35,156 nucleotides of DNA from Candidatus Kuenenia stuttgartensis. GTDB taxonomy: Bacteria; Planctomycetota; Planctomycetia; Pirellulales; UBA1268. Of this stretch, positions 9,138-31,278 are shown piece after piece. Positions within the stretch are counted from its first letter, which is position 1, and every line of letters starts with the position of its first letter. Position numbers and translations under genes: made by a program. The notes under the pieces were generated by a model that saw only the letters and a program-made list of their open reading frames with translations, was not told the origin of the DNA and ran no database searches. The stretch is from contig CAMBFA010000021.1 of NCBI GenBank assembly GCA_945865325.1, positions 1-35,156 on the forward strand. Reading direction: 5' to 3'.

Positions 9138-11363
9138 ATGGCCCGCAGTCCGTACGTCTGGGGCATTGACATCGGCAAATGCGCCCTTAAGGCCGTTCGC
9201 TGCCGGGATTCGGCTGAACCGGGCAAGATCATCGCCGACGCCTTCGACTACGTCGAATACCCGATGATCGTCTCCCAGCCGGAGGCCGATCCGGTGGAAT
9301 TGGTGCGCGCCGCGCTCCAGGAGTTTGTTGGCCGCAACAAGCTCCAAGGGGACCGCGTCGTGGTCTCCGTCCCCGGGCAGTCGGGCCTCTCCAAGTTCAT
9401 CAAGCTGCCGCCGATCGAGGCGAAGAAGATCCCCGACATCGTCCGCTACGAGGCCCGGCAGCAGATCCCCTTCCCGCTCGAGCAGGTGGAATGGGACTGG
9501 CAGCGGCTCGTCGGCGGGCTCGAAGAGGGGGGCTTCGTCCTCGACGCCGAGGTGGCGCTGTTCGCGATGAAGAAGGAGCAGGTCGCCAAGGCGCTGGTGC
9601 CGCTCACGGAAGCTGGGATCGAGGTCGACATCCTTCAGCTCTCGCCGATGGCGCTGCTGAACATGCTGGTCTTCGACCAGATGCCCGATCCGACGACGAT
9701 CGACCCCCTCGAGCCGCCCCCCTCGGTAGTCCTCGTCTCGATGGGCGTCGACGCCACCGATCTCGTCATCACCAACGGGCTGCGGATCTGGCAGCGGAGC
9801 ATGCCGATCGGCGGCAACAACTTCACCAAGGCCCTCGTGCAGGGGCTCAAGCTCACGTTCGCCAAGGCGGAGCAGTTGAAGCGGAACGCGGCCCGGGCGG
9901 ACAACGCCAAAGACGTGTTCAACGCGATGAAGCCGGTGTTCAACGAGTTCGCCTCGGAGCTCCAGCGCTCGCTCAACTACTTTACCGGGTCGGATCGGTC
10001 GGCACGGATCGGCAAGATCCTCCTCCTCGGCAATGCCTCGAAGCTCAAGGGGCTCGCCGACTTCGTCGGCAAGCAGCTGAATGTCGAGGTCCATCGGTTC
10101 GACACGTACCGCGGCCTCGACGGAGCGAGCGTGACGTCGGCCCCGACTTTCAAGGACAACCGACTCGCTTTCGGCACCGCTTACGGCCTCGCCCTCCAGG
10201 GGGTGCAGACGGCGGCGATCAACACGAATCTCCTCCCCGGGGAGATCGTCCGCGAGCGGCTCATCGAATCGAAGAAGCCGTGGGCCGTGGGGGCGATGAT
10301 CGGCCTCCTCGGGGCTTCGGCGTTGAGCTTTCTGGGGACGTTCTACGCCTGGAGTGGCTACTCCCCAAAGAGCTACGCCGGAGCCTTCCAGCAGGCTGAT
10401 TCGGCGAAGAGCCGCTCGTCGTCGGCGCTCTCCGCGGTGGAGGAATCGAAGCAGAAGCAGGCGGCGGCGGTTACCCAGCAGCAATACCTCATCCGTCTGG
10501 CCGATCGACGGTTTCAGTCGATCGACATGCTGCGGGCGGTGGAGACGCTTCTCCCCCAGGACGATCCGGGGAAGCCGATCCCCAATCCGGCCGATCGCAA
10601 CGAGATCCATGTCGACGGGTTTGACTGTCAATGGTATCCCGATCTCGCCGTTTGGTTCGAGAAGGTGAAGCCGCAGTGGCTGGAGACTTTCCCGGCGGAG
10701 GAGGTCGACGAGGACGAGGAAGGGAAGCCGGCCGCGGAGGGGGACGCGGCGGCAGCGCCGCCAGAGGCGAAGTGGTCGGCCGCCACGGACGCCGGGCCGA
10801 AGGGGCCGGGGTGGGTCGTGCAGATCAAGGGCCACCACTACCACAACGAAGATCGATCCAAGCCGCGGGTGGGGATCCAGTTTGTCCGCGAGACGCTGGC
10901 CAACGGCCTGCTCGGCCGGCTCGATGATGTGCCGGTCACGGCCGGGCCGCTGGCAGGGAAACTCGTCCCGCCGGCAGAGCTCGGGATCGGGTATCCCGTC
11001 ATCGTGTCGTCGTCGCCGATCTCGATCGAACGGGTCGTCGGGCTGAGGCTCCCCGGTGCCGAAGGGGCGGCTGACACCACGGCGGGCGGTGGGGCTGCCG
11101 GCGCCGGATTCCCTCCCGGGGGACCGACGGGAAAGTCTTCGATGGGCCCTGGAAAGGGGTTGCCGGGGATGGGCCCGGGGATGATGCAGCCTGGCATGAT
11201 GGGCCCGGGGATCCCGGGGATGATGGGCTCGGGGGGCATGGGTGGGGCTGAGGAGGGAACGCCGCTGCGGCGCTACGACTTCGTGCTCCATTTCACCTGG
11301 CAGCCGGTTGTTCCGGGGATGCCCAAGCTGGCTGCCGAGGGGGATGGCACGACCGGGAATTGA
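9138..11363 (+). CDS. pilM: PilM-PilN fusion, type IV pilus/secretion-like assembly protein
   Basis: In type IV pilus systems PilM is a cytoplasmic actin-like ATPase that binds the N-terminus of membrane protein PilN and links the motor side to the PilNO alignment complex. This 741-aa protein has both parts. Residues 5-360 are PilM-like (YVWGIDIGKCALKAV phosphate-1 motif, VVVSVPGQSG, IPDIVRYEARQQIPFPLEQVEWDW, and GKILLLGNASKLKG before the C-terminus of the fold). From residue 362 the sequence NLLPGEIVRER is the typical PilN start, followed by a transmembrane segment (about 381-403), a coiled coil (about 410-455) and an extracytoplasmic domain with an acidic insert (VDEDEEG) and a Met/Gly/Pro-rich insert (about 670-705). 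ATG 9138 is preferred over the open frame from 9084 because PilM proteins start here. A promoter candidate lies 67 bp upstream. Confidence 0.88.
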   Translation: MARSPYVWGIDIGKCALKAVRCRDSAEPGKIIADAFDYVEYPMIVSQPEADPVELVRAALQEFVGRNKLQGDRVVVSVPGQSGLSKFIKLPPIEAKKIPDIVRYEARQQIPFPLEQVEWDWQRLVGGLEEGGFVLDAEVALFAMKKEQVAKALVPLTEAGIEVDILQLSPMALLNMLVFDQMPDPTTIDPLEPPPSVVLVSMGVDATDLVITNGLRIWQRSMPIGGNNFTKALVQGLKLTFAKAEQLKRNAARADNAKDVFNAMKPVFNEFASELQRSLNYFTGSDRSARIGKILLLGNASKLKGLADFVGKQLNVEVHRFDTYRGLDGASVTSAPTFKDNRLAFGTAYGLALQGVQTAAINTNLLPGEIVRERLIESKKPWAVGAMIGLLGASALSFLGTFYAWSGYSPKSYAGAFQQADSAKSRSSSALSAVEESKQKQAAAVTQQQYLIRLADRRFQSIDMLRAVETLLPQDDPGKPIPNPADRNEIHVDGFDCQWYPDLAVWFEKVKPQWLETFPAEEVDEDEEGKPAAEGDAAAAPPEAKWSAATDAGPKGPGWVVQIKGHHYHNEDRSKPRVGIQFVRETLANGLLGRLDDVPVTAGPLAGKLVPPAELGIGYPVIVSSSPISIERVVGLRLPGAEGAADTTAGGGAAGAGFPPGGPTGKSSMGPGKGLPGMGPGMMQPGMMGPGIPGMMGSGGMGGAEEGTPLRRYDFVLHFTWQPVVPGMPKLAAEGDGTTGN

Positions 11364-11424
11364 TGTCGGGAAGACCGTTGCCGTCGGATTGATCACGACT
11401 CACGCGAGCGCAGGGGGAAAAGCC

Positions 11425-13326
11425 ATGGCCATGATCCCGGATTCTGTCCGCCCGTATTGGGACTTCGTCGCGAAGTACCACTTCTGGCTCCTGGCGCCGT
11501 TGGTGCCGGCACTCATCCTGCCGACGCTGTTCATGGCCAACAACAAGCTGTCGGCGGAGATCGCCTCGAAGCGGACCGAGATCGACGGCAAGATCTCGGC
11601 GCTCAAGCAGATCGAAGGGAAATCCCCCCACCCCAACGACAGCTGGACCAACGACATCGACAAACGCACCGCACGCGTGAAGCGCGAGACGCTCGCCGAG
11701 TGGCAGCGCTTCTGGGACAGCCAGGCGGAGCTCCAGGCGTGGCCCGCCGAGCTCGGCGCCGACTTCCTCCAGCGGCTCTCCAATCTCCGCCCCGGGAGGG
11801 AGCTCCAGCGGCAACTCCTCGAGCGCTATCAGTCGACCGTCCGAGACCTCGTGAAGCAGCTCCCCAAGCGGATGGGCGCCGATGTCGCGATGAGCGATCC
11901 CGACGTGCAGCTCGCCGAAGGGGCGGGTGAAGGCCAGCCCAGCGGCCCCCCGGGCGGGATGGCGATGATGATGAATCGGATGGGCCCGTCGGGTGGGGGA
12001 GCCCCCGGGATGCCAAGCCGTCGCTCCACGGCCCTCGTGGAGTGGAATCCGGCCGATCAGCAGCGGCTCTACGATTCCTTCCACTGGGACAAGCCGCCGA
12101 AGACGAAGCAGGTCTTTTTGGCGCAGGAGGAGCTGCGTGTCTATGGGCTGCTGTGTGATCAGATCGCCGTCATGAATCAAGGGGCCGGAGGGACCTACGA
12201 CGCGGCGATCCCGCATGTCGAGCAACTCGCCGTCGGCTACCCGGCCTGCGAGGACGAACCCGCTTTCTCTACCGTTGGGCGGATGCACGAGCCAGGCGCG
12301 GAAGGGGCTGGTGCGACGGGCATGGGAATGGGGCGGAGCATGATGATGCCGATGGGAGGTGGCGACAGCGACTCCGCCGGCGCGGCCGGCGCCGGCGGGC
12401 AGATCAAGCCGCAGCATCCGCGCTTTCTGCCGAAGGAAGGGCAATCGGGGATGACGCGGGGCATGTCGATGATGCCGCCGATGGGGGGGGGCGACTCCGA
12501 AGGTGCTGGCACCGCTGCCGCCAAGGGACCTGACACCTCCGACGAGGCCTTCCTGACATGGATCTACGTCGATGCCGATGGCAAGCCGCTCAAGGGGGAG
12601 GAGGTGGCGACGGCGCCGTCGGCCCTCATGACCCATCTGATGCCGTTCACGATCCGGGTGACGATCGATCAGCGCAAGCTCGACGCCTTCCTCCTCCAAC
12701 TGGCCACATCGACGGTGCCGATCGACATCCGTCAGATTCGTCTCAATCCCTCTGCCGCCGCGGCTGGTGTTCCTGGCATGGGGATGGGAAGCATGATGGG
12801 CCCACCGGGGGGAGGTGGACCGCCGGGGGGCGGTGGCCCACCGGGGGGCGGGATGGGGGGCCCTCCCAATCGCGGCATGATGATGCCCCGCCCAGGTCAG
12901 CAGAGCGGGAGCGAAGACGGCCCGATGGTGGGGATGGCCGGTGCCGGCTCGATGGTTCGCCCCCATGACATCGTGCTCGAGCTCCGCGGCACGATCGCCC
13001 TGGCGACAGCACCGAATCCCGAGGCGCTGGGGCTGGCTGCCGAAGGCGCTGGGGATGCCGGGGGGGATGCCGCCGATCCGCTGCCCGCTGCCGACACCCC
13101 CCCCGCCCAAGAGGCCGAACCGGCCGCTGTCGAGCCGGCCGACGCTGGTCCGGCCGCGGCGGGTGATGCCCCGGCCGACCCGGCGCCGGCCGAGGGTGCG
13201 AATGAAGTGCCCCCCGCTGCCGATGCGCCGCCGGCTGGAGCGCCCCCTGCCGACGGGGCAGCTCCGCCGCCAGGGGACGCCCCGCCCCCTGCCGATCAGC
13301 CACCCCCAGCCGAGCCTGCTGTTTGA
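11425..13326 (+). CDS. Membrane-anchored coiled-coil protein of the pilM cluster (PilO-like position)
   Basis: The 633-aa protein is not assigned to a named family. It has a short cytoplasmic N-terminus, one transmembrane helix (about residues 20-38, FWLLAPLVPALILPTLFM), then a helical coiled-coil region (about 40-160), which is the topology of PilO. The body contains at least four Met/Gly-rich stretches (for example GGMAMMMNRMG, GMGMGRSMMMPMGG, GMSMMPPMGG, and a longer tract near 12770-12900) and ends in about 100 residues of Ala/Pro. ATG 11425 has GGGGG about 9 nt upstream and follows the PilM-PilN stop by 61 bp; the open frame back to 11242 overlaps that gene and is discarded. Gene order PilM, PilN, then a single-span coiled-coil protein suggests a PilO role, which is inference. 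Confidence 0.85.
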   Translation: MAMIPDSVRPYWDFVAKYHFWLLAPLVPALILPTLFMANNKLSAEIASKRTEIDGKISALKQIEGKSPHPNDSWTNDIDKRTARVKRETLAEWQRFWDSQAELQAWPAELGADFLQRLSNLRPGRELQRQLLERYQSTVRDLVKQLPKRMGADVAMSDPDVQLAEGAGEGQPSGPPGGMAMMMNRMGPSGGGAPGMPSRRSTALVEWNPADQQRLYDSFHWDKPPKTKQVFLAQEELRVYGLLCDQIAVMNQGAGGTYDAAIPHVEQLAVGYPACEDEPAFSTVGRMHEPGAEGAGATGMGMGRSMMMPMGGGDSDSAGAAGAGGQIKPQHPRFLPKEGQSGMTRGMSMMPPMGGGDSEGAGTAAAKGPDTSDEAFLTWIYVDADGKPLKGEEVATAPSALMTHLMPFTIRVTIDQRKLDAFLLQLATSTVPIDIRQIRLNPSAAAAGVPGMGMGSMMGPPGGGGPPGGGGPPGGGMGGPPNRGMMMPRPGQQSGSEDGPMVGMAGAGSMVRPHDIVLELRGTIALATAPNPEALGLAAEGAGDAGGDAADPLPAADTPPAQEAEPAAVEPADAGPAAAGDAPADPAPAEGANEVPPAADAPPAGAPPADGAAPPPGDAPPPADQPPPAEPAV

Positions 13327-13481
13327 TGCGCACCGCCGGATCGACAGCCCGACAATTCCTGTTTGCGTCCGGGCGATTGAGCCCGAATTGAAGCCCGGCT
13401 CAACGCCGATCTTTCCGCTCCGATTGACCTGTTCCTTCAGCCACAACGATCCCATCCCGACCGACCGAAGAGGATGATGCC

Positions 13482-15794
13482 ATGAAAAAGCCAAGCATCA
13501 ACTTGAGCAAGCAGTCGATCGTCGACTTCTTTCTGAATCACGGTGAGAAACTCGTCGTGGGGCTGTTTGGGGCGTTGGCCTGCACCCTCGTCTGGGGCGG
13601 CATCGACGCCGTGCGGACCAAGCAACCGAAGCGCGAGCAGCTTCCCCCAGTCATCGTCGAGATGGCCGGGCGGACCATGAAGCACATCGGCGACTCCAAG
13701 GGCCCCCCAGCGGAGATGACGAAGCGGCCGAGCCTCGCCAAGCAGGTCGAGCCGTGGCGCGAAAATGTCGTCACCGCGCCGGCGGCGCCGCGGATCTTCA
13801 ACGCGCCGATCTCCGACGAAAAGGCAAAGCGGTCGGCTCCGGAAGTGCTCCCGGTGGTCGATCTCCGGGTCCGGCCGGGCTGGGCGGTGATCGCCGTTCC
13901 CCAGGATCCCAATCAGGGAATGATGATGCAGCAGCCGGAGATGTCGAAGGAAAACGACAAGGACAAAAACAAAAAGAAGCCAAAGGGGGGCAAGGGCGCC
14001 GACCCAGCCGACGTGGCTGGGGGGGCTCCCCCGGGCGGCCCGACAAAGGGGAAGAATAAGTTTCAGATGGGCGGGATGGGGCCGATGGGGCCGATGGGGC
14101 CGGGTGGTCCGATGATGGGAGGAGGGGATGGCGGCTCGATGCTGCCGTTGGTTTCGCCGGTCATGCCGGGGAAGATCATTCCCTACTGCCTGGTTACGGC
14201 GCTGGTGCCGGCCAAGGCCCAGCAGGAGGCCTTCATGCGGGCCTTCGCCTTCAGTGGCCTCCAGACCCAGGCCGACATCCCGATCTGGAGCGACTACCTC
14301 GTCGAGCGGGCCGAGGTGCCCGCGGGCACGCCCGCCAATGCCGAGTTGACCTGGAAGCGACTCGACCTCAAAGCCGTGGCGAAGTCGGCCGAGGACTGGA
14401 ACGGCCTCCAGCCGGAGATCGCCCCTCCCGACCTCCAACTCGACCCGTCGCAGATCATGCCGCGCGATGAGACGGCGATGGAAGTCGTGCCCTACGTCTT
14501 CCCGCTTCCCCGTCTGGCGGGCGATCCGTGGGGCACCGAATCGCTCCATCCGTGGGTCGTCGAGCAGATGCGGAAGCGGCAGATCGAGCAAGAGAAGTGG
14601 GATGCCCGTGCCCTCGAGGAGCAGGAGAAGGCCTCGAAGACGAGCATCCTCGGTGGCCCGGGTGCCGGGGGGCCGACGGGCGCAGGGGCTGGCATGGGGG
14701 CTGGCATGGGGGCTGCTATGGGACGGAGCATGATGCCCCCGGGCGGAGCAGGCCGGAGCAGCATGATGCCCCCGGGCGGACTTATGGGGCGCGGGGCTGG
14801 CGGCGGCGATTCGGAAGGCTCTCCGATGGGGGGCGGCGGGATGCGGATGTCGCCGGGGATGTCGTCGCGGATGGGCGGCCCTGGCGGGATGATGCCCCCA
14901 GGCATGGGGCCGGGGGGCATGATGGGCGGCGGCATGGGGAGCACGTTGGCCGGCGCCGACGGCGGAATGGGAATGGAGATGCAGCTCCCCGAATACCGGA
15001 TGTTCCGCTTTGTCGATACGACCGTGGTGCCGGGGAAGACCTACCGCTACCGGGTGCAGATCTCGCTGCGCAATCCCAACTACGACCTGCCGGCGCAGTA
15101 TCTCGTCCAGGCCGATCTGGCCGACAAGCCGATCCTGGCGGCGGCAAAGTCGGAGCCGAGCGCGCAGGCCCACGTGCCCGACAAAACCGGGCTCCTCGTC
15201 CGCGCGCTCCGCAAGGGGGAATCGCGGAAGTCGAAGACCGGCTACGAGGTCCTCGTGCTCGCTGAGAATCCGGAAACGGGCAACTATTGGCTCAAGAGCC
15301 TGACGACGGAATTGGGGGCTTTTGCCAACTTCGACAAGAAGCTGGCGAAGGGGCCGGACGCGAAGACCGCCGAGAGCGTGACGACCAACAGCCTCCTCGT
15401 CGATGCCCGCGGCCGGGCGGAGGATGGCGATACGAAGAAGGGAACTGCGACCGGCCCTTCGGAGCCGCTGGAGCTCCTCTTCCTCCGCGAGGACGGCAGT
15501 TTTTCCGTCGCCTCGGCGGCCGATTCGCAGCGTGATTATGAGCGCTACGCCCAGACGCTACCGGCGGCCGACGACGGGAAGAAGGGGAAGGACAAGGATG
15601 GCGAGGGGGGCGGTTCGTCGCTCTTCCCCGCTGGGGGTGCTGGTGGCGGCCTGTTTGGCGCCCCGCCAGGGGGTGGTGCCGGGGCTCCTCCGGGCGGACC
15701 TCCGGGGGGCGGGCGGGGATCGATGCCCCCCGGGATGCGCGGGAGCACGCCCCAAAGCGGAAGGCCGGCTGGGGCGCAGACGCCGGGCGGTTGA
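13482..15794 (+). CDS. Membrane-anchored low-complexity protein of the pilM cluster
   Basis: The 770-aa protein is unassigned. A basic N-terminus is followed by one transmembrane helix (about residues 23-42, KLVVGLFGALACTLVWGGI), then an extracytoplasmic chain. A Lys-rich stretch (KDKNKKKPKGGKG) and two Met/Gly/Pro-rich tracts (about 14060-14130 and 14640-14960) separate folded parts. One part near residues 500-545 (FVDTTVVPGKTYRYRVQISLRNPNY) looks like a beta-sandwich strand pattern of the fibronectin-III type. The C-terminus is Gly/Pro-rich. ATG 13482 has AGAGGA about 8 nt upstream. It follows the preceding gene by 155 bp on the same strand and is probably co-transcribed. It may act as the outer part of a pilus-like envelope complex; that is context only. 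Confidence 0.85.
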   Translation: MKKPSINLSKQSIVDFFLNHGEKLVVGLFGALACTLVWGGIDAVRTKQPKREQLPPVIVEMAGRTMKHIGDSKGPPAEMTKRPSLAKQVEPWRENVVTAPAAPRIFNAPISDEKAKRSAPEVLPVVDLRVRPGWAVIAVPQDPNQGMMMQQPEMSKENDKDKNKKKPKGGKGADPADVAGGAPPGGPTKGKNKFQMGGMGPMGPMGPGGPMMGGGDGGSMLPLVSPVMPGKIIPYCLVTALVPAKAQQEAFMRAFAFSGLQTQADIPIWSDYLVERAEVPAGTPANAELTWKRLDLKAVAKSAEDWNGLQPEIAPPDLQLDPSQIMPRDETAMEVVPYVFPLPRLAGDPWGTESLHPWVVEQMRKRQIEQEKWDARALEEQEKASKTSILGGPGAGGPTGAGAGMGAGMGAAMGRSMMPPGGAGRSSMMPPGGLMGRGAGGGDSEGSPMGGGGMRMSPGMSSRMGGPGGMMPPGMGPGGMMGGGMGSTLAGADGGMGMEMQLPEYRMFRFVDTTVVPGKTYRYRVQISLRNPNYDLPAQYLVQADLADKPILAAAKSEPSAQAHVPDKTGLLVRALRKGESRKSKTGYEVLVLAENPETGNYWLKSLTTELGAFANFDKKLAKGPDAKTAESVTTNSLLVDARGRAEDGDTKKGTATGPSEPLELLFLREDGSFSVASAADSQRDYERYAQTLPAADDGKKGKDKDGEGGGSSLFPAGGAGGGLFGAPPGGGAGAPPGGPPGGGRGSMPPGMRGSTPQSGRPAGAQTPGG

Positions 15795-15866
15795 TCGCCG
15801 GCGGGTGGTGTTGATCGGTCAAGGTATGAGTCTGTTTTTGCTGAGAGCCTTTCGAGGAGAATTGCC

Positions 15867-17312
15867 ATGTTCCGCCCCTCGCGCTTGTTCGCCCGTGCCG
15901 GTGGCCCGCAGTGGACCGCGGTCGTCTGTGCGACCGGCCTGGTCGCCGTGACGGCGTGGCCACTCCCGGCCCAGGAGCCGGGGGATGAGACGGCCCAGGA
16001 TGGAGCCGACGAGGGGACGAAGCCGGCCGGCGATGCGGGGCGGAATGCCGCCTGGACGAAGATCGAGCAGGATGCCGAGAAGGGCTACCGTGAGCCTCTC
16101 AAGACCGGGGGTGGCTTTGAGGCCTCTGCCCGCGATTTTGTGACGAAAAAGGCGATGCCCCAGCTGGCCAACGAGGCCAATCGCCTGATCATCGATCGGG
16201 TGCGACGGAAGATGCGCGAGATCCTCGTCGTCGGGATCACCGACGATCGGGCCTTTGACGACGCCTCCAAGGCAGTCGCCGACGCCGCTGTCGCCATCGC
16301 GAGGAATCCTGCGGCCTCGACCGCCGCCCGCGTCAACGCGATGCTCCTCGTGGGCGAACTGCGAGCCAAAGACAACAAGGAGGGCACCGTCTGGCCGGCC
16401 GCGGTCACCCAGCTTGCGGCCGTGGCCGGCGACGCCACGATCGACCCGAGCGTTCGCGTGGCCGCGATGGCCGGTCTTGTCCGCCACGCCGACGTCGCCA
16501 AGCGCACCGGGGGCGACCGGTTGACCGATTTTGCAAAGGGGGCCCGACCGGCAATCCTGGGAATTGTCGCGGAGCAGCCCTCGGCCGATCAGCCGCTCGT
16601 CTCCGATTGGCTCGCGTCGCGGGCGCTCTCGATTCTCACTGCGGTCGTGAAGTCTTCCCCGAAGGAGTTGGCGGCGACGCTGGCCGGGGTGATGAACGAC
16701 AAAAGTCGGTCGCTCGATGTCCGCGTCCGTGCCGCCTCCGCCCTCGGCGCGACGGTCACCCCGAAGTCGGAAATCCAGGCGGTGGAAACGACCAACGGCG
16801 TCACGGAACTGGCGGTGGCAGTCCTCGAGGTCGACGAGGGAATCCTGCGGGACCGCCGCTACGAGCAGCAGATGGGTGGGGGCGGGGCAGGGGGTGGCGG
16901 ATCCATGATGCCCGGGCGCCCGGGCATGCCAGGAATGCCTCCCGGCGGGATGTCGATGCCAGGCATGGGAGGCGGGGGCGTGGCTGTGACGCAACTTGTC
17001 CCCGATCAATCGCTCCGCCGCACGGCGTGGCGCTTGGTGACGCTCGCCGACGCGGTCCTCACAGAGGATGGCAAGGGGGGCGTGGCCGCCCTGCTCTCCG
17101 GGGATGACAAGGCCGCCAGTCAGGCCTACGCCGAGCTCTATCGGAAGTACGGCCTGGAGCTCGACGAGAAGCGGACCGACGACATCATCCTCGAAGCGCT
17201 CTCTGCCCTCCGCCCCGGCGACGAGGAGGAGGAAGCCGCGCTGCCGGCCGGGGAGACCGAAGGGGCTCCGGCGAAGCCTGTCGACGACAACGATCCCTTC
17301 GGCAGCAAGTGA
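15867..17312 (+). CDS. Secreted HEAT-like helical-repeat protein of the pilM cluster
   Basis: The protein is 481 aa with a signal peptide (core about residues 16-32, VVCATGLVAVTAW, then PAQE). The mature protein is almost all alpha-helical with regularly spaced Ala/Leu/Val helices (for example VNAMLLVGELRAKD, VRVAAMAGLVRHADV, LDVRVRAASALGA), a pattern like HEAT/ARM solenoids that bind other proteins. One Met/Gly/Pro-rich insert (about 16870-16980) interrupts the repeats near residues 335-375, as in the three genes upstream. The C-terminus is acidic and ends DDNDPFGSK. ATG 15867 has GAGGAG about 8 nt upstream; the gap to the previous gene is 72 bp. It is probably the last gene of the pilM transcription unit and may be a periplasmic scaffold for that complex (inference). 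Confidence 0.85.
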   Translation: MFRPSRLFARAGGPQWTAVVCATGLVAVTAWPLPAQEPGDETAQDGADEGTKPAGDAGRNAAWTKIEQDAEKGYREPLKTGGGFEASARDFVTKKAMPQLANEANRLIIDRVRRKMREILVVGITDDRAFDDASKAVADAAVAIARNPAASTAARVNAMLLVGELRAKDNKEGTVWPAAVTQLAAVAGDATIDPSVRVAAMAGLVRHADVAKRTGGDRLTDFAKGARPAILGIVAEQPSADQPLVSDWLASRALSILTAVVKSSPKELAATLAGVMNDKSRSLDVRVRAASALGATVTPKSEIQAVETTNGVTELAVAVLEVDEGILRDRRYEQQMGGGGAGGGGSMMPGRPGMPGMPPGGMSMPGMGGGGVAVTQLVPDQSLRRTAWRLVTLADAVLTEDGKGGVAALLSGDDKAASQAYAELYRKYGLELDEKRTDDIILEALSALRPGDEEEEAALPAGETEGAPAKPVDDNDPFGSK

Positions 17313-17580: not shown

Positions 17581-17778
17581 TCAGCGCTGCGGGCCGCCCG
17601 GCATGCCCTTCATCCCCTTCATGCCCTTCATCGATTCCATCCCCTTCTTCATCGAATCTTCCGCGCTTTCGAGCCGCTTTTGCTGCGTCTCGGCCGTCTG
17701 GGGCTTTTCACCACCGCACCCTGTCAGAGAGAGCACAGCCAACGTCATCAGAACCAATTGCGAAGCCGCTCGACCCAT
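17581..17778 (-). CDS. Small Met/Lys-rich lipoprotein
   Basis: The 65-aa predicted lipoprotein has a signal peptide of residues 1-20 and lipobox LTGC with the acylated Cys21, so it should be anchored in a membrane after export. The mature part is a short acidic/polar helix (TAETQQKRLESAEDS) followed by a Lys-Gly-Met repeat (MKKGMESMKGMKGMKGM) and a Pro/Gly end. ATG 17778 is chosen because it places the signal peptide correctly and has GGGAGA upstream; the frame is open further to 17946 without a credible start. It sits downstream of the DUF1559 gene on the same strand, a usual place for a small lipoprotein in planctomycetes. Function is unknown. The Met-rich tail echoes the Met-rich tracts of the neighbouring pilM cluster. 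Confidence 0.75.
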   Translation of the reverse strand: MGRAASQLVLMTLAVLSLTGCGGEKPQTAETQQKRLESAEDSMKKGMESMKGMKGMKGMPGGPQR

Positions 17779-17820
17779 GATTTGTTTCTCCCGTTGAAAT
17801 CCTGTTTGAATATTTGTCCT

Positions 17821-17830
17821 AAAAAAAATC
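17821..17830 (-). terminator. T8 tract between DUF1559 and lipoprotein genes
   Basis: On the minus strand a run of eight T follows a GC-rich stretch that can form only a short (about 4 bp) stem. It may be a weak intrinsic terminator for the DUF1559 transcript, or part of an AT-rich promoter for the lipoprotein gene, which starts about 45 bp further on. Confidence 0.25.
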
Positions 17831-17954
17831 GCTTGGCCCGCGAGCCGGCGGTGGGCATCTGCCCCGGCAACGCGGCAGACGCGTGCGTGTAGCTGGTCGC
17901 GCCCGACGCGCTCCCAACCGAAGCAACCAACAATGACCACTCCCAAAGACGGGG

Positions 17955-18037: not shown

Positions 18038-19111
18038 TCATTCGTCGGAGACCGGCTGGCCGTCGTCGCGGACCGCAAGCAGGGTCATGATCCCCAAATC
18101 GATGGTGTCGGTCATGGTCTGAACAGACCCGTCTCCGCGGAGCGTCATGACCACACCGTTATGGGCCGACGTGAGCGGCGGATTGGCCGGAGACGCATCG
18201 GCCCAAGCGCCCCAATCCCGCACGCCGGGCTGCCCCAAAACCTTCGCGTTTGGAGTGTACCGCAGGGTAACGTTGTTGGTGTGCGGCCCCCAGTCACGCC
18301 AGCCGGAGAGGCCGCCCATGTGCCAGCCCCAGTTGCGGCTCGGCCGGCGATCTTGGCCATCGCCACCGGTCGCGCCGAACACCAGCCCGCTCATTTCGCC
18401 AACAATGAGGGTCTTCGACAACCCGTCGGTGCACCGCGACATGTTGATCCCAATAATCTGCGGCCCGACGGCGTCGGCGGCTACGCCCGTCGTGCCGTTG
18501 CCGTAATTCGGGATCATGCCGCGACCGGAGGTGATCCCCCAAGCGCCGTCGTCGTTGAACGCCATACCTGCCGTGGACTGGAACGGCCCGGTCGGCATGG
18601 GCCCGAACTGCATCGGAGCAGCGCCAGCGATGCCGTAATAATTGCCGGTGAAGTTGTTCCACGGACCGTTGTTGGTGAGCGACGACGACGGGCAGATCAG
18701 CATCTTGATCCGCAGGTTCTGCCACACGGTGTAGTTGCCGTCCCAGCCGGAGTTGAGCACCGCACCGCCGTCTTTGGAGCACCACTTGAGCTTCGAGTAA
18801 GCGCCCGTTTGTTCCATGAATGGGAGGAGTCGCACCCACTGCGAGTGTCCCCACGTCTCCGCCGAGAAGGGCGTGGCCCACCAAGAGGTGCCGGCACCGC
18901 CGTTGGGAAAGCCCTGATTGCTGTCATGAAAGTTTTGGAACGCGAGTCCCTGCTGCTTCATGTTGTTGGAACACTGTGACCGCCGGGCCGATTCACGTGC
19001 GGCCTGAACCGCCGGCAGCAAGAGGCCGACAAGGGTGCCGATGATGGCGATGACAACGAGCAGTTCGACGAGCGTGAACGCCCGCCGGCTGCCGTTGGGG
19101 ATGGCGTGCAT
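18038..19111 (-). CDS. DUF1559 prepilin-like protein with H-X9-DG motif
   Basis: The 357-aa protein belongs to the very large planctomycete DUF1559 family. The N-terminus is a type IV prepilin-like signal: basic NGSRR, then [21 protein letters not shown], with Ala rather than the usual Gly before the cleavage-site Phe and Glu at +5. The hydrophobic helix continues into [20 protein letters not shown], the family hallmark. The body has the CPSS segment and ends with the H-X9-DG motif (His317, Asp327, Gly328). It should be processed by prepilin peptidase and inserted in the inner membrane or a pseudopilus-like fibre; the exact role of these proteins is not known. ATG 19111 has CAGGAG about 7 nt upstream. 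It is followed by a strong hairpin and a small lipoprotein gene. Confidence 0.95.
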
Positions 19112-23822: not shown

Positions 23823-24956
23823 TCAGATCGCGGCCAAGGGCTTGCGGGCCACCCCATCGACGATCGCCCCGGCGATCTGCGGCAGTGGGAGGACGAGGTC
23901 AACGACCCCGAGCTCGATCGCTGCCCGTGGCATGCCGTAGACGACGCAGGTCTTTTCGTGTTCGGCGATCGTCCTCCCTCCCGCCTTGCGGATCGCTGCC
24001 ATTCCCATCGCGCCGTCGCTCCCCATCCCTGTCAGCAGCGCCGCAGTGACATACTTCCCCCCCGCCTCGGCGACGGAGCGGAAGAGGACGTCGACACTCG
24101 GCCGGCAATGATGCACCGGCGGGGTCTGGAGGAGCCGCGTCTTGTAGCCCTCTCCCTGCCAGGTGAGGGCGAGGTGGAAGTCGCCCGGGGCCACGACGCA
24201 GGTGCCGCGCTGGAGGATCATGCCATCCTCCGCCTCGACGACGCGCATCGAGCAGAGGGAATCGAGGCGCCCGGCAACCGCCTTGGAAAAATAGGGGGAG
24301 ATGTGTTGCACAACCGCGATCGGCGGCAGGCCAGCAGGGAGATTGGGGAGCACGCTCCGCAGCGCTTCCACGCCGCCGGTCGAGGCGCCGATGACGATCA
24401 ACTGGCGGTTGTCGACCCGGCCGGTGTAGGGGGAGGGCTGCACCCCGGCCTCCGACGGCTCGGTGGCCACCGCTGCCTTGACGACCGCCGTGGCCGAGAT
24501 CGTTGTGGGGCGGTCGGCCCGGGCCCGCGTGCCGCGGAATCGCACCGACGCGGCCGCCGCCTTGACGTGGTGGGCCAGTTGCCCGGCCAGGGCCCCGACC
24601 GACATCGTGCCATTGGGCTTGGCGAGGACGTCGACGGCGCCGGCCTCGAGGGCATCGAGGGCCACCTGCGAGCCGGCCTGGGCCAGGGAGCTGACCACCA
24701 CCACTGGCATCGGATGGTGCTGCATCAGGATCCGCAGGAAGGTCAGCCCATCCATCCGCGGCATCTCGAGGTCGAGCGTGATCACGTCGGGGGAGAGCCG
24801 CATGATCTTCTCGCGGGCTACGTACGGATCGCAGGCCGATCCCACCACCTCGATCCCGGGGTCGAGATTGAGGCAATCGGTGATCGTCTTCCGCACGAGT
24901 GCCGAATCGTCGACGACGAGCACGCGGAGTTTCTTCTGGGTCGACAGGACGCTCAT
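23823..24956 (-). CDS. cheB: Chemotaxis response regulator, protein-glutamate methylesterase
   Basis: CheB (377 aa) removes methyl groups from, or deamidates, receptor glutamates when phosphorylated by CheA, opposing CheR in adaptation. Residues 10-125 are a receiver with Asp16/Asp17, phospho-acceptor Asp62 in VITLDLEMP and Lys113. A linker of about 60 residues precedes the methylesterase domain (about 184-375) with catalytic Ser192 in IGASTGG, His218 in VVQHIS and the Asp in LLTGMGSDGAMG. ATG 24956 is chosen over the longer frame (to 25085), which overlaps cheR. It is the last gene of the minus-strand che operon, 46 bp after cheR, and its end faces the receiver-cyclase gene. Confidence 0.96.
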   Translation of the reverse strand: MSVLSTQKKLRVLVVDDSALVRKTITDCLNLDPGIEVVGSACDPYVAREKIMRLSPDVITLDLEMPRMDGLTFLRILMQHHPMPVVVVSSLAQAGSQVALDALEAGAVDVLAKPNGTMSVGALAGQLAHHVKAAAASVRFRGTRARADRPTTISATAVVKAAVATEPSEAGVQPSPYTGRVDNRQLIVIGASTGGVEALRSVLPNLPAGLPPIAVVQHISPYFSKAVAGRLDSLCSMRVVEAEDGMILQRGTCVVAPGDFHLALTWQGEGYKTRLLQTPPVHHCRPSVDVLFRSVAEAGGKYVTAALLTGMGSDGAMGMAAIRKAGGRTIAEHEKTCVVYGMPRAAIELGVVDLVLPLPQIAGAIVDGVARKPLAAI

Positions 24957-25002
24957 GGGAGACCTGACTGGAAGCGGATCCCCCGCGCGGGCCGGGGACT
25001 GG

Positions 25003-25848
25003 TCATTCGGGGCGCATGTAAACGCTCGGGGCGATCGTTCGCAGACCGTGCCGGAGGCCGATGAGGCTCTCCGAATGGCCAACAAACAGGAATCCCCCCG
25101 GGGCGAGCTGGTCGGTCAACCTCTCGATCAGCGTGTTCCGCGAGGGAACATCGAAGTAGATCATGACATTCCGGCAGAAGATCACATCCAGGCCGCGCGG
25201 GACGGGATAGACATCCTGAAACAGGTTAACGTAGCGGACGGTCACCTGACGCCGCAGTTCGTTCTTGACCCGGAAGTATCCATCGCGATCACCGATGCCG
25301 CGGAGGAAATAGCGCTCCAGCCATTCCTGCTGCGGCACGCTCACCTTATCGGCATCGTAGATCGCCTGCTGGCAGCGCTCGAGCATCCGCTGCGAGATGT
25401 CGGAGGCCTCGATGTGCCACTGCACCGCCGGCCGCAGCCGGCAGAACTCCGCCAGCACGATCGCCAGGGAATAGACCTCCTCGCCCGACGAGCAGGCAGC
25501 GCACCAAAACCGCAGCGGCCGCATCCCTGCGATCGACTTCTCCGCCAGCCGGGGGAGGAGTTGCCGGGTGAGGAGATCGAAGTGCGACGACTCGCGGAAG
25601 AAGTGGGTGTGGTTGGTGGAGATCAGATCGATGAGGGCATCGACCTCGTCCGCCCCCTGGGGGCTCTTGAGGAGCGCGCAGTAGTCGGCGTAGTCGTCGA
25701 TCCGCAGCGCCACCAGCCGCTGCCGCAGCCTCCCGGCCACGAGCGTCTGCCGGTCTGGCCCGAGCCTGATCCGGCTGCGCTCGTAGACGAGGTTGGCCAG
25801 GAAGTCGTAGGCCTGGGATGTGAGCGGGGCTTCAGAGGGGAACAGCAT
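25003..25848 (-). CDS. cheR: Chemotaxis protein methyltransferase
   Basis: CheR (281 aa) methylates receptor glutamates using S-adenosylmethionine. The N-terminal helical domain (about 8-75) is followed by the methyltransferase fold: TNHTHFFRESSHFD, SAM loop WCAACSSGEEVYS, ASDIS acidic strand and FCRNVMIYF. The beta-subdomain segment RGIGDRDGYFRV has the same length as the pentapeptide-binding loop I recall from enteric CheR, fitting the NFxxF tails of the two receptors here. ATG 25848 is chosen because CheR proteins begin about there; the frame runs on to 26013 through a repeat region. There is no good SD before it. The 212-bp gap to the upstream mcp is unusual within this operon and holds repeats and a hairpin. 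Confidence 0.95.
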   Translation of the reverse strand: MLFPSEAPLTSQAYDFLANLVYERSRIRLGPDRQTLVAGRLRQRLVALRIDDYADYCALLKSPQGADEVDALIDLISTNHTHFFRESSHFDLLTRQLLPRLAEKSIAGMRPLRFWCAACSSGEEVYSLAIVLAEFCRLRPAVQWHIEASDISQRMLERCQQAIYDADKVSVPQQEWLERYFLRGIGDRDGYFRVKNELRRQVTVRYVNLFQDVYPVPRGLDVIFCRNVMIYFDVPSRNTLIERLTDQLAPGGFLFVGHSESLIGLRHGLRTIAPSVYMRPE

Positions 25849-25905
25849 GGCGGCGGTGGGCGGGATCCCGGGGGATCCGCCAAACAAGGGACTCCATTCT
25901 CTATC

Positions 25906-25929
25906 CCCCGCGGCCAACAGGCCGCGGGG
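25906..25929. other. Perfect 10-bp hairpin in the cheR leader
   Basis: CCCCGCGGCC and GGCCGCGGGG are exact reverse complements around an AACA loop. It lies about 60 bp upstream of the cheR start, on the mcp-cheR transcript. There is no T tract on the minus strand, so it is more likely an mRNA structure than an intrinsic terminator. Confidence 0.6.
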
Positions 25930-25933
25930 CCCT

Positions 25934-26038
25934 GGCCGCAGGTCCATGACCACAGGTCCCTGACCACAGGTCCGAGGGCTTCGATCACAGATCCGGGGGC
26001 TTCGAACAATCATAGGCCCCCCGGACGATCACAGGTTC
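25934..26038. repeat. Six degenerate copies of a 13-bp direct repeat between mcp and cheR
   Basis: The core is YGAYCACAGGTCC. Copies start at about 25933, 25947, 25961, 25982, 26007 (weak) and 26026. The first three are spaced exactly 14 bp apart; two later copies sit in a 21-22-bp unit that also repeats GGGCTTCGA. The array fills most of the 212-bp gap between mcp and cheR. It has the look of a short tandem-repeat expansion and could be a binding-site array or a recombination product. Confidence 0.6.
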
Positions 26039-26060
26039 GCTCCGTCGCTCCGCACTGGGC

Positions 26061-27707
26061 TCAAAACTTCGTGAAGTTGCGGTCTTCCTGGTCGCCATCC
26101 CCCGGCATCGGGATCTGCATTCCGCCCGACTTGCCAGCGTCGGTGAGGCCGCGGATCGGCGCCCCCGACCGGATCGCGGGGCGGAGCTTGCGGGCCTGGG
26201 GCGCCTCGGGCCGCTGCAGGGTCGATCGCATCTGCGGGGCCCGTCCCCCGCCAAACCGGGTCTGCTGCGTGGTGCCGGTGACGAGCGAGCGGAGGTAGGC
26301 GACCGTATCCTGCATCGTGTGGGCCTGGCTGTTGAGTTGCTCGGCGGCCGAGGCACTCTGCTGGGCGTTGGTGGCGTTGCCCTGGGTCACCTTGTCGAGC
26401 TGAGTCATCGCCGTGCCGACTTGCTGGATCCCCTGCGACTGCTCCTTGGCAGCGGTCGAGATCTCGGCCACCAGGCTGTCGACGGCGGCCACCTTCCGGA
26501 CGATCTCGTCGAGCGATTCCCCCACCTTGCCGCAGCTCACCGAGCCACGCTGGCTGTTGGCGATCGCCGCCTCGATCTTCTCGGCTGTTTCCTTGGCGGC
26601 AGCGGCGGAGCGCTGGGCGAGCGAGCGAACCTCGTCGGCGACGACAGCAAACCCCGCTCCAGCCTCGCCGGCTCGGGCTGCCTCGACGGCAGCGTTGAGC
26701 GCGAGGATGTTGGTCTGAAAGGCGATCTCGTCGATGTTCTTGACGATCTTCGCCACCTCGGCACTCGAAGCCTCGATGGCGTGCATGGCGGTGTTCATGT
26801 CGACCATTGTTTGGGCCCCCGACTGGGCGGCGCCCCGGGCCTGGTTGGCGAAGGACTTCGCCTTCTCGGCGTTGTCGGCGGTGTTGCGAATCATCACCGA
26901 CATCTCCTCGAGTGCGGCGCTGGTCTCGGCGACGCTTGAGCCCTGCTCGTTGCATCCCTCGGCGAGCGACTGACTGGCGGACGAGAGCTGGCCGGAGGCG
27001 GAGGCGGTCTGCGTCGCCCCTTCCTCGAGCGAATCGGAGACCGCGCCCAGGGCACCGCTGACGGCGCGGATAATCGCCCAGCCGATGAGCGCGCCAATGC
27101 AGGCGGTAGTGATCAGGAGGGGGAGGATGATCCAGAAGCTCGAGGTGACCTTGGTGGCGGCCATCGCCGCCTCTTTCTCAGCGAGTTCGATGTTGTAGCC
27201 GATGTCTTCGCTGAAGCCCTTCGTCGTCTGCTCGAGGGTCGCATCGATCTCGGTGCGCATCAGGTTTTGCGCCTCCAGTTCGCTCTTCTCGCCCTTGGCG
27301 CGGATCATGCCGAGGGCCCGATCGGCGGCGTTCAAGAACGCCGTCCGCGCCTCCGCGGCTTTCTCGAATAACTGCCTGTCTCTGTCGTCGGAGATGAGGT
27401 TCTTGTAACCCTTCATCTCTTCATCGGCCGACTTACGGTTAGCGCCGAAGGCTGTTTCGGCGGCGGCGACGGCCTTGTCGTCGGTGGCGAAGTCGACGGC
27501 TTTGCGCACCTGGCGGGCCGATTCGTTGTTGAGCTGGATGATCTTGTTGAGCGACACCACCGACGGCACCGCGTTGCTCGCCAGTTGCAAGACGTTGGTA
27601 TTGATGTCGCGCACCCGCCACAGGCCGACGAGCCCGAGAATGATCGACAGGACAACGAGGGTGATGAAGCCGAACGAGATCCGGCGCGGAATGGTCCAAG
27701 TGCTCAT
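26061..27707 (-). CDS. Methyl-accepting chemotaxis protein (4-helix-bundle sensor, HAMP-less)
   Basis: The 548-aa transmembrane chemoreceptor passes ligand signals to CheA through CheW. TM1 is about residues 12-31, then an extracytoplasmic helical region of about 155 residues (4HB-MCP type, [20 protein letters not shown]), and TM2 about 187-209. The cytoplasmic part goes almost directly into the methylated helices; I see no normal 50-residue HAMP domain. The signalling tip is canonical ([36 protein letters not shown], about 327-367). A flexible Arg/Gly/Pro tail of about 65 residues ends in NFTKF, which fits the CheR-docking pentapeptide pattern. ATG 27707 lies 18 bp after the cheW stop. It is a close paralogue of the plus-strand MCP at 31279. 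Confidence 0.96.
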
Positions 27708-27725
27708 GGCGATGAAGTCCGTGGA

Positions 27726-28268
27726 TCAGGAGGCGTGGGAAGCGGAGGGGAGTCCGGGGGCCTGGATGGCGATCGTGCCATCGAAGGCGGAGATCTTGTC
27801 GAGGTCGATGAGCGTCTTGACTCCAGTACCCGATTTGGCCATCCCGGTGATAAACATCGAGTCGAAGGCGCCGCCGAAATCGGGTGTCGGCTCGATGTCG
27901 GCGGCCGTGAAGTTGGCCACCTCCTCGACGCCGTCGACGATCACGCCATACAGCCGCGTGCCGCCGGCGGCCGCGGCGATCTGGGTGACGACGATGCAGT
28001 TGCGCTCGGTGTCGGCGGAGATCGGCAGGCAGAACTTCGACCGCAGATCGACCAGCGGGATCACCTTGCCGCGGAGGTTGATCACCCCTTTGACATGCTC
28101 CGGCATGTTGGCCACCGGCGTGATCGGGCAGAGGCGGATGATCTCGCGGACTTTCAGCACCGGAATCCCGTACGATTCCTTGCTCAGCGTGAAGGTGAGA
28201 TATTTGCCCGGCAGGGCGCCGGTCGTTCCCTGATGGGAGCTGTGGTGCGGGGAGGGATGGGCTGTCAT
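27726..28268 (-). CDS. cheW: Chemotaxis coupling protein
   Basis: CheW (180 aa) bridges receptor tips and CheA in the signalling array. The CheW beta-barrel fold occupies about residues 21-165: YLTFTLSKESYGIPVLKVREI, then VANMPEHVKGVINLRGKVIPLVDLRSKF, which is the highly conserved family core with the receptor/CheA-binding NLRG and DLR residues, and YGVIVDGVEEV. A His/Ser-rich N-terminal lead of about 20 residues and a short Pro/Ala tail are outside the fold. It sits between cheA (65 bp upstream) and mcp (18 bp downstream) on the same strand. Confidence 0.97.
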   Translation of the reverse strand: MTAHPSPHHSSHQGTTGALPGKYLTFTLSKESYGIPVLKVREIIRLCPITPVANMPEHVKGVINLRGKVIPLVDLRSKFCLPISADTERNCIVVTQIAAAAGGTRLYGVIVDGVEEVANFTAADIEPTPDFGGAFDSMFITGMAKSGTGVKTLIDLDKISAFDGTIAIQAPGLPSASHAS

Positions 28269-28333
28269 GGATCGATTCCGGCGGGCTGACGAATGGGCTG
28301 GGAATGGGGGGAAGAATTGGGGCGAGGAAGCGA

Positions 28334-30655: not shown

Positions 30656-31278
30656 GGGGCCGATTCGTCGTTGTGGTGGCCGGGCGTTCCCGCACTGCCG
30701 GGGGCCGGAAAAAAGAGAGGCATGGAGGGAACCAAAAGGAATGACGTCAGAATCGGAACGCCGGCCCTTCATTCAGCAGGCCAGGAGAGCATGCCTGCGA
30801 ATCGCCTGATCGCCTCGCGCCGGCCCCCGCCCAGAGCCTCTAGAGCCTTCCGATACCATTCAGACCCTACTTCCGAAAAAGTGGTCACGCAACCGGCCGC
30901 AGGCCGTTTTCCTGCGACGAAAAGCCATCTGGGTCGAAACGGGCAGGCGGTGGGAAGAAACGGGCAGTTTGAGGGACGACTGAGCATTCAGGAGGACAAA
31001 TGGGCAGCGCCAAATGGGAGAAGCGTCAGCCTTGGGGTCGCGCCTCATGATCGCAGCCTCTGAGGTTTGCCCCGGCGCCGAATCGGATGTAGCGTTCGAG
31101 GGAGATTTCGCGACTCTGGCGGTCTGCCGGCGAAGGGTGGTTGTTTGACGCTCTTGGTCCTTGGCCGACGGCTCGCCCCCTCAGAGCCTCCGTCGCCACG
31201 ATCCAAGCCCATCGCCGCCGGCCTCCTCTCATCGAGCCATTCGCTGCCTCCCTTCAGTCCCACGCAGGTGTTCTGTCC
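30656..31278. other. Divergent control region between cheA and the second mcp gene
   Basis: The region is 623 bp with no supported gene, and must hold the promoters of the che operon (minus) and the second MCP (plus). Visible elements are a small hairpin with T4 (CGGCC-GCA-GGCCG-TTTT, 30894-30910) and a pair of 11-bp direct repeats 21 bp apart. The local A-rich patch around 30875-30885 breaks the GC-rich background. I found no convincing -35/-10 pair. Confidence 0.5.
30936..30967. repeat. GAAACGGGCAG direct repeat, 21-bp spacing
   Basis: Identical 11-mers lie at 30936-30946 and 30957-30967. Their start-to-start distance is two helical turns, so a protein pair could bind the same DNA face. 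They lie about 280 bp upstream of cheA and 310 bp upstream of the second mcp gene, in the shared control region. Confidence 0.5.

Follow-up and report, generated by a model that had tools for sequence, protein, structure and literature searches.

Among the described systems closest to the gene cluster examined here are the pilus-like locus Amuc_1098-1102 of Akkermansia muciniphila, whose make-up we partly presume, and the PilMNOP proteins of type IVa pili. The cluster comprises four consecutive genes, P1 to P4, in a stretch of 35,156 nucleotides (hereafter, the window; contig CAMBFA010000021.1, positions 1 to 35,156) from an assembly of 4.42 Mb in 298 contigs named Candidatus Kuenenia stuttgartensis (GCA_945865325.1), and all four proteins carry tracts rich in Met, Gly and Pro. 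Among relatives, we found that the flavour of the Gly-rich linkers, that is, their residues other than Gly, differs by lineage and tends to stay matched between partner proteins. Disordered low-complexity linkers are usually regarded as freely evolving, and no bacterial machine is known to us in which such linkers are matched and switch with lineage. Among the open-licence PMC matches listed, none dealt with Met tracts of this cluster or with low-complexity linkers that are matched.

Gly-rich linkers bearing stickers are, to our knowledge, not a described feature of PilMNOP. In the FG-nucleoporins, several subunits of one machine carry Gly-spaced hydrophobic stickers, although machine and sequence are different there and no homology is claimed. 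According to the excerpted text of the respective papers, Amuc_1098 is PilQ (PMC4960237), unstructured regions of Pseudomonas aeruginosa PilO matter for function (PMC5805733), and Met-to-Tyr changes in the Met-rich domain of yeast Pbp1 keep its droplets, which are then peroxide-resistant (PMC8394241). As far as that excerpt goes, the Pbp1 replacement indicates that sticker exchange is physically possible. The present proteins resemble ataxin-2/Pbp1 in their Met-rich low complexity and in that lineages differ in Met versus Phe/Tyr, as Tyr substitutes for Met there; unlike Pbp1, a single cytoplasmic eukaryotic protein, they are multiple components of a machine in the bacterial envelope.

The tract-bearing cluster and its pilus-type relatives

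The cluster runs in the order P1 (PilM-type), P2 (Amuc_1100/PilO-like), P3 (unclassified) and P4 (exported), with the following features (TM, transmembrane; pLDDT, predicted local distance difference test, from AlphaFold2 (AF2) models):

9138..11363 (+): P1, with PilM domain (residues 9-354), TNLLPxEI..R motif, TM segment (residues 384-402) and C-terminal region
11139..11255 (+): P1 Met/Gly/Pro tract, behind the TM segment
11425..13326 (+): P2, with TM helix, long helix, predicted Amuc_1100/PilO-like core with low-complexity loops, and C-terminal Ala/Pro tail
11923..12024 (+): P2 tract 1, low-pLDDT residues 169-199 of the model
12289..12384 (+): P2 tract 2, low-pLDDT residues 280-324 of the model
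12427..12510 (+): P2 tract 3, overlapping low-pLDDT residues 341-368 of the model
12760..12951 (+): P2 linker 4, low-pLDDT residues 446-509, with GPPGGGGPPGGGG repeat and a Met tract at 12877-12936
13482..15794 (+): P3, with a TM helix at the N terminus, folded domains that weakly match an Ig/FnIII-like fold, and linkers and a tail predicted to be disordered
14055..14144 (+): P3 tract 1, inside low-pLDDT residues 161-223 of the model
14676..14789 (+): P3 tract 2, inside low-pLDDT residues 391-496, containing the 12-bp repeat at 14685-14715
14814..14981 (+): P3 tract 3, for the most part inside low-pLDDT residues 391-496
15867..17312 (+): P4, taken as exported from a signal peptide seen by eye
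16893..16985 (+): P4 Met/Gly/Pro tract, found by the tract test described below

The P2 start codon was picked by homology and by an AGGGGG stretch ahead of the ATG. P1 matched PF11104 in the Pfam profile search (E 2.1e-35; 122.7 bits against a cut-off of 27) and scored 152.4 bits with TIGR01175 (PilM), above the curated cut-off of 133. Its similarity to NF045709, the Amuc_1101 equivalog, spans residues 9-473 and reaches 195 bits, below the cut-off of 650; P1 is thus a relative of Amuc_1101, not a member. The TNLLPxEI..R motif behind the PilM domain forms invariant columns in the alignment and is followed by one TM segment predicted from hydropathy. We take an NLLP-type motif with such a segment as a PilN mark, and no PilN family was found in P1 at E ≤ 0.01 in Pfam/NCBIfam profile searches. 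P1 is putatively a PilM-PilN-like fusion, and with a cytoplasmic PilM domain its tract would lie in the periplasm. Matches to the PilM region were present in 144 of the 147 genomes of the order sample (E ≤ 1e-60) and in 104 of the 156 genomes of the phylum sample (E ≤ 1e-40).

The AF2 model of P2 aligned with three Amuc_1100 structures in VIA-align (6lad, Z 10.9; 6kny, Z 10.2; 6laf, Z 10.1; 162-178 residues, rmsd 3.8-6.0, 9-10% identity; next row, Z 5.7), scores to be read with the caveat that Z below about 13 can arise by chance for mostly helical models. Its best Foldseek match had an E of just 0.049 (prob 0.97), and the match to the PilO model 3jc8_Oa was weak (Z 5.6, rmsd 16.6). Pfam and PDB-sequence profile searches yielded no Pfam family and no PilO or Amuc_1100 match for P2, and T2SSM_b was touched, weakly (E 0.054), by one of 32 P2 members. 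The modelled overall fold of P2 is Amuc_1100/PilO-like, and one linker precedes the final strand of its core. For P3, we obtained no Pfam family, nothing credible in the profile search of PDB sequences and no Foldseek match at E ≤ 0.001; an Ig/FnIII-like assignment was rejected at a best Z of just 8.6, and P3 is left without a name because all its fold matches are weak. P4 had no Pfam/NCBIfam match at E ≤ 0.01, and 23 of the order's 91 loci had a homologue of it, each of them belonging to the window's own family (f1).

A secretin domain (PF00263) was found in the large open reading frame (ORF) after P3 in all three relatives tested (L072, L078 and L303). The cluster therefore resembles Amuc_1098-1102 in its PilM-like protein, in the P2 model and in this secretin position, but differs in the sub-threshold NF045709 score, in the long low-complexity insertions of P2 and P3, and in that P4 fills the slot after P3 while the single secretin frame found in the window's assembly lies on a different contig. 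It resembles PilMNOP in the PilM score, the PilN-like motif with its TM segment and the weak PilO match, whereas P3 belongs to no recognised family. We infer that P1 to P3, with P4 in the window's family, would assemble at the inner membrane and in the periplasm as one subcomplex of a type IV pilus-like machine resembling that of Amuc_1098-1102, both the physical association and the periplasmic topology being presumptive.

The original prediction, made from the letters of the window, reported tracts in four consecutive proteins, and all four quoted peptides are in place and in frame. The slippage-like repeat units that it described are real as well, at 14685-14715 (12 bp, 2.6 copies, unit GGGGCTGGCATG) and 12799-12851 (18 bp, 2.9 copies). 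Our tract test asked for M ≥ 5 and M+G+P ≥ 12 within 20 residues. Random presence throughout the proteome, which had been named as counting against a role, was not seen in the samples taken: the test was passed by 0 of 398 ORFs sampled from the window's genome (28 stretches covering 560 kb of the 4.42 Mb; the naive ORF caller puts some false ORFs into these controls), by 0 of 389 with a caller filtered by GC content at third codon positions (GC3), and by 0 of 270 ORFs from five other tract-bearing genomes. A looser test (at least 5 Met in 20 residues, any neighbours) was passed by 2 of the 398. Gly-rich low-complexity sequence was common in the own-genome sample (8655 aa), yet Met made up 1.3% of its non-Gly residues as against 20% in P2 and 19% in P3, with membrane helices included among these controls. 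Genome-wide Met or Gly bias was ruled out as the cause on these samples. The disorder prediction that had been proposed as a check also agreed, in that the tracts of P2 and P3 coincide with low-confidence linkers between well-predicted domains of the AF2 models and are thus predicted to be disordered. Other long low-complexity proteins, for example (QQGEG)n and Ser/Gly/Ala-rich ones, occur elsewhere in the window's genome (stretches L002-L021 and L084-L091).

Matched linker flavours between partner proteins

The order set contained 91 loci (the window and 90 others); the paralogous pilM loci L081 and L082 were excluded, and genes of low-GC loci were called by homology. P1, P2 and P3 occurred together in 85 of the 91. 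In the proposed comparison among relatives, tracts were largely kept within the genus and patchy beyond it. Close orthologues, whose lack of tracts would have counted against a role, mostly carried them: the main set holds six loci of the window's genus (the window being one), and tracts were present in P2 of 6/6, P3 of 5/5 found, P1 of 5/6 and P4 of 4/4 found, and two more congeners (L175 and L179) both had the P2 tract and one of them the P1 tract. Among the 85 loci, Met tracts were carried by P1, P2 and P3 in 10, P2 and P3 in 14, P1 and P2 in 1, P2 only in 10, P3 only in 3 and none in 47. Those of P2 and P3 co-occurred (both, 24; P2 not P3, 11; P3 not P2, 3; neither, 47; Fisher 7.6e-10, kinship ignored), and all 11 P1 tracts were accompanied by a P2 tract. 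On a PilM tree of 84 of the 91 loci (7 were left out for missing or fused genes or motif), parsimony required 19 changes for P2 and 15 for P3 (shuffled means, 27 and 23), indicating many tract gains and losses. In loci lacking Met, Gly-rich linkers often remained with another flavour, such as GGRGGEFGG (L076; EFGG/RGG), SPYGGG (L074), PPGYGG (L146), Ser-rich (L147) or Ala/Pro (L058, L072 and L110).

We measured matching as the cosine of residue composition of Gly-rich low-complexity sequence, Gly excluded. The mean P2-P3 cosine was 0.85 (54 genera), compared with 0.66 after shuffling and 0.75 after shuffling within families (0/5000 each). P1-P2 reached 0.80 versus 0.69 (39 genera; 0/5000; L138, where the P1 and P2 matches are the same ORF, was excluded) and P1-P3 0.71 versus 0.62 (36 genera; 0/5000), and for P2-P4 and P3-P4 (10 genera) 7 and 1 of 5000 shuffles, respectively, matched as well as the real pairs. 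The matching persisted in GC bins and without Met (0/5000 each). The best partner for P2 was its own P3 in 14 of 54 genera, and the own P3 was among the top five in 37.

Because shuffle tests overstate significance with related genomes, contrasts on the PilM tree are the better guide. Between whole-protein percentages of P2 and P3 (83 contrasts), Met correlated at r = 0.69, Ser at 0.53, Ala at 0.49, Pro at 0.47 and Tyr at 0.39; Glu and Thr correlated too, Phe, Asp and Asn weakly, and linker length gave r = 0.74. Met outside the linkers hardly co-varied (0.13; 69 loci). GC-driven composition was ruled out by the contrasts of GC against Met (0.02 and -0.01) together with the GC-binned matching. 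Exact 6-residue words common to P2 and P3 numbered 100, versus 6.6 in shuffles (50 genera; at least one in 27), with 2.0 per genome versus 0.32 across genera of one family. In the window's genome, the P2-P3 likeness was reached by 1 of 1081 pairs among 47 Gly-rich control proteins, and a count of common 5-residue words put P2 closer to P3 than to low-complexity controls in 9 of 10 genomes. By cosine, P2 was closer to P3, and P3 to P2, than to same-genome Gly-rich controls in 10 of 10 genomes.

A hold-out of 40 loci outside the order, 28 of them complete, gave similar values for P1-P3 (0.815 vs 0.611 shuffled, n = 15) and P2-P3 (0.811 vs 0.648, n = 10), neither reached in 5000 shuffles, and Met tracts of P1 and P3 co-occurred there (both in 5 loci, either one alone in 1 each, none in 21; p = 3.5e-4). 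In L285, L286 and L289, outside the order, P1 has very long Met-Gly repeats (MGGMGGMGG, MGMGYEGMGMG and MPGMGMPGMG), P3 has Met-Gly tracts and P2 is free of Met tracts. Perhaps these three have a different partner set.

Proposed contact between linkers and its alternatives

The matched make-up suggests that the linkers recognise one another. We regard the system as a putative PilM-Amuc_1100-type complex with candidate sticker-and-spacer linkers; their composition, predicted disorder and co-variation are shown, and multivalent self-association would be expected of such domains. The periplasmic parts of P1 to P3, and of P4 in the window's family, would bear long Gly-rich linkers that are disordered and in which weakly hydrophobic stickers are set at intervals, namely Met in the window's lineage, Tyr/Phe in relatives and Pro/Ser/Ala in others. 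Like stickers on separate subunits would touch, and the linkers would therefore co-evolve, the others following when one switches flavour. Such attraction might help to gather or hold PilMNO-like subunits or tune the flexibility of the complex, which would be its benefit. The ratio of Met+Phe+Tyr to Leu+Ile+Val was 2.59-fold in the linkers versus 0.20 in control low-complexity sequence, the controls consisting in part of membrane helices or false ORFs. When each of 43 genera was represented by a single locus (kinship ignored), Met was negatively correlated with Phe+Tyr (r = -0.49) and Leu+Ile+Val (r = -0.35) and unrelated to Pro+Ala, Ser+Thr and Asp+Glu (0.02, 0.00 and -0.08). The excess and the trade-off with Phe+Tyr form the pattern expected of interchangeable stickers on a Gly spacer.

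Of the roles offered by the original prediction, sticky spacers in a shared complex are the one that survives, in view of the predicted disorder, cluster specificity in the samples taken, matching and purifying selection. That co-evolving sticker-and-spacer linkers promote like-with-like contact in the trans-envelope complex seems to us about an even call, the adhesion itself being presumed. More tentatively, the subunits may recognise each other in the periplasm by a low-complexity 'code' particular to each lineage (Met-Gly, Tyr-Gly, Phe/Arg-Gly or Pro/Ser) that drifts yet stays matched by compensatory co-evolution; this code could, with the same reserve, be the disordered equivalent of interface co-evolution. 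The cluster offers dozens of natural replicates in which flavour varies by lineage and partners stay matched, which makes specific, selectable recognition by low-complexity sequences directly testable and points to a sequence-only way of detecting interacting disordered regions.

Several observations weigh against such contact. No Met tract was present in 47 of the 85 loci, and L122, L135 and L143 had no Gly-rich linker by the definition used, which indicates that stickiness is not essential to the machine. The own-genome secretin lacks a Met tract, as do all 14 large ORFs after P3 that were inspected (partly confirmed as secretins, in loci all without P2 tracts), and secretins were rejected on the latter count as carriers of the cluster's tracts. 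Of the 10 genomes used for the same-genome comparison with Gly-rich controls, nine supplied small control samples (75-415 aa, against 8655 aa in the window's genome). Arg did not co-vary (tree contrast r = 0.02), no common 6-residue word was found in 23 of 50 genera, and G137 had no 5-residue word common to P2 and P3. P4 was the poorer match, its cosines of 0.82-0.88 being attained by between 32 and 145 of the 1081 random pairs. In the hold-out, P1-P2 matching was weaker (28/5000), and no locus had Met tracts in both P1 and P2, while the co-occurrence of P2 with P3 tracts fell short of significance (p = 0.21). Codon identity of shared words was well above expectation in L118 (0.64 vs 0.33), L060 (0.52 vs 0.28), L145 (0.70 vs 0.33), L151 (0.68 vs 0.36) and L104 (1.0 vs 0.67), so some copying at the DNA level is possible there.

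The main rival to contact is a shared environment, in which the periplasmic space, export route, expression level, or a pilus, peptidoglycan or secretin partner selects alike spacers in proteins that do not touch. It would account for the co-variation of linker lengths (r = 0.74), for tracts that follow a single predicted TM segment in P1 to P3 and an export signal judged by eye in P4, and for the partial matching of P4, which is not necessarily a complex member. However, the exact 6-residue words (100 vs 6.6) are more specific than bulk properties need, and same-genome Gly-rich proteins, whose location is not established as periplasmic, lack the cluster's flavour. We consider this rival rather unlikely, although it stands well ahead of those that follow.

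Adjacent repeats could also have undergone replication slippage and gene conversion that spread one repeat type within the operon under little selection, as would be suggested by the tandem units at 12799-12851 and 14685-14715 and by codon identities of shared words that are slightly above expectation overall and clearly so in several genomes. Across ten comparisons (five genome pairs for P2 and P3 each), however, the ratio of nonsynonymous to synonymous divergence (dN/dS) in linkers was 0.10-0.20 and in the folded parts 0.04-0.22, the linker value lying between 0.6 and 4 times the folded one; the values are rough for the two pairs outside the window's genus, where synonymous divergence is near saturation (dS about 1-2). 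This indicates a constrained peptide, mostly less tightly so than the folds, and between genome pairs 19/29 (lowest) to 25/26 (highest) Met sites were kept. Neutral slippage is thus not supported, nor is the tolerated slippage suggested by the original prediction, given also the independence of Met from GC and the scant codon copying of shared words overall. Gly-rich proteins elsewhere in the genome are not enriched in Met, which counts against local DNA processes. Codon identity of shared 6-residue words was just 0.45 overall (0.40 expected), which does not support operon-wide DNA copying as the main cause, although it is possible in several genomes. Local DNA processes are a quite improbable explanation of the whole and explain parts at best.

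For Met-specific chemistry, we scanned 80 genomes for the periplasmic reductase MsrP, which had some match in 26 and was above the cut-off in 3, only G017 of these bearing tracts; its presence does not follow the tracts, and other reductases were outside that scan. A role in periplasmic copper binding or oxidant scavenging or sensing, as the original prediction had also considered, has in its favour the high Met density and a Met-rich eukaryotic domain known as a redox sensor in the excerpt of PMC8394241. The window's tracts hold no Cys or His, which is still compatible with Met-only copper sites. Such chemistry would explain parts at best and is the least probable reading of all as a shared function, because Met swaps with Tyr/Phe, relatives' linkers carry Tyr/Phe/Ser/Pro and match equally without Met, and MsrP is rare.

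Neighbouring genes

A small lipoprotein-like ORF at 17581-17946 (-), with an LTGC motif seen by eye and the C-terminal end KKGMESMKGMKGMKGMPGGPQR, adjoins the cluster. It had no match in the Pfam search and is a fifth Met-rich protein, passing the tract test with another flavour (Lys-Met-Gly). At 18038-19111 (-), the pilus-type cluster is neighboured by a DUF1559 (SBP_bac_10) protein whose N terminus carries a methylation motif of the pilin type. The same contig carries, at 23823-32949, a chemosensory set of CheB, CheR, a methyl-accepting chemotaxis protein (MCP), CheW, CheA and a second MCP.

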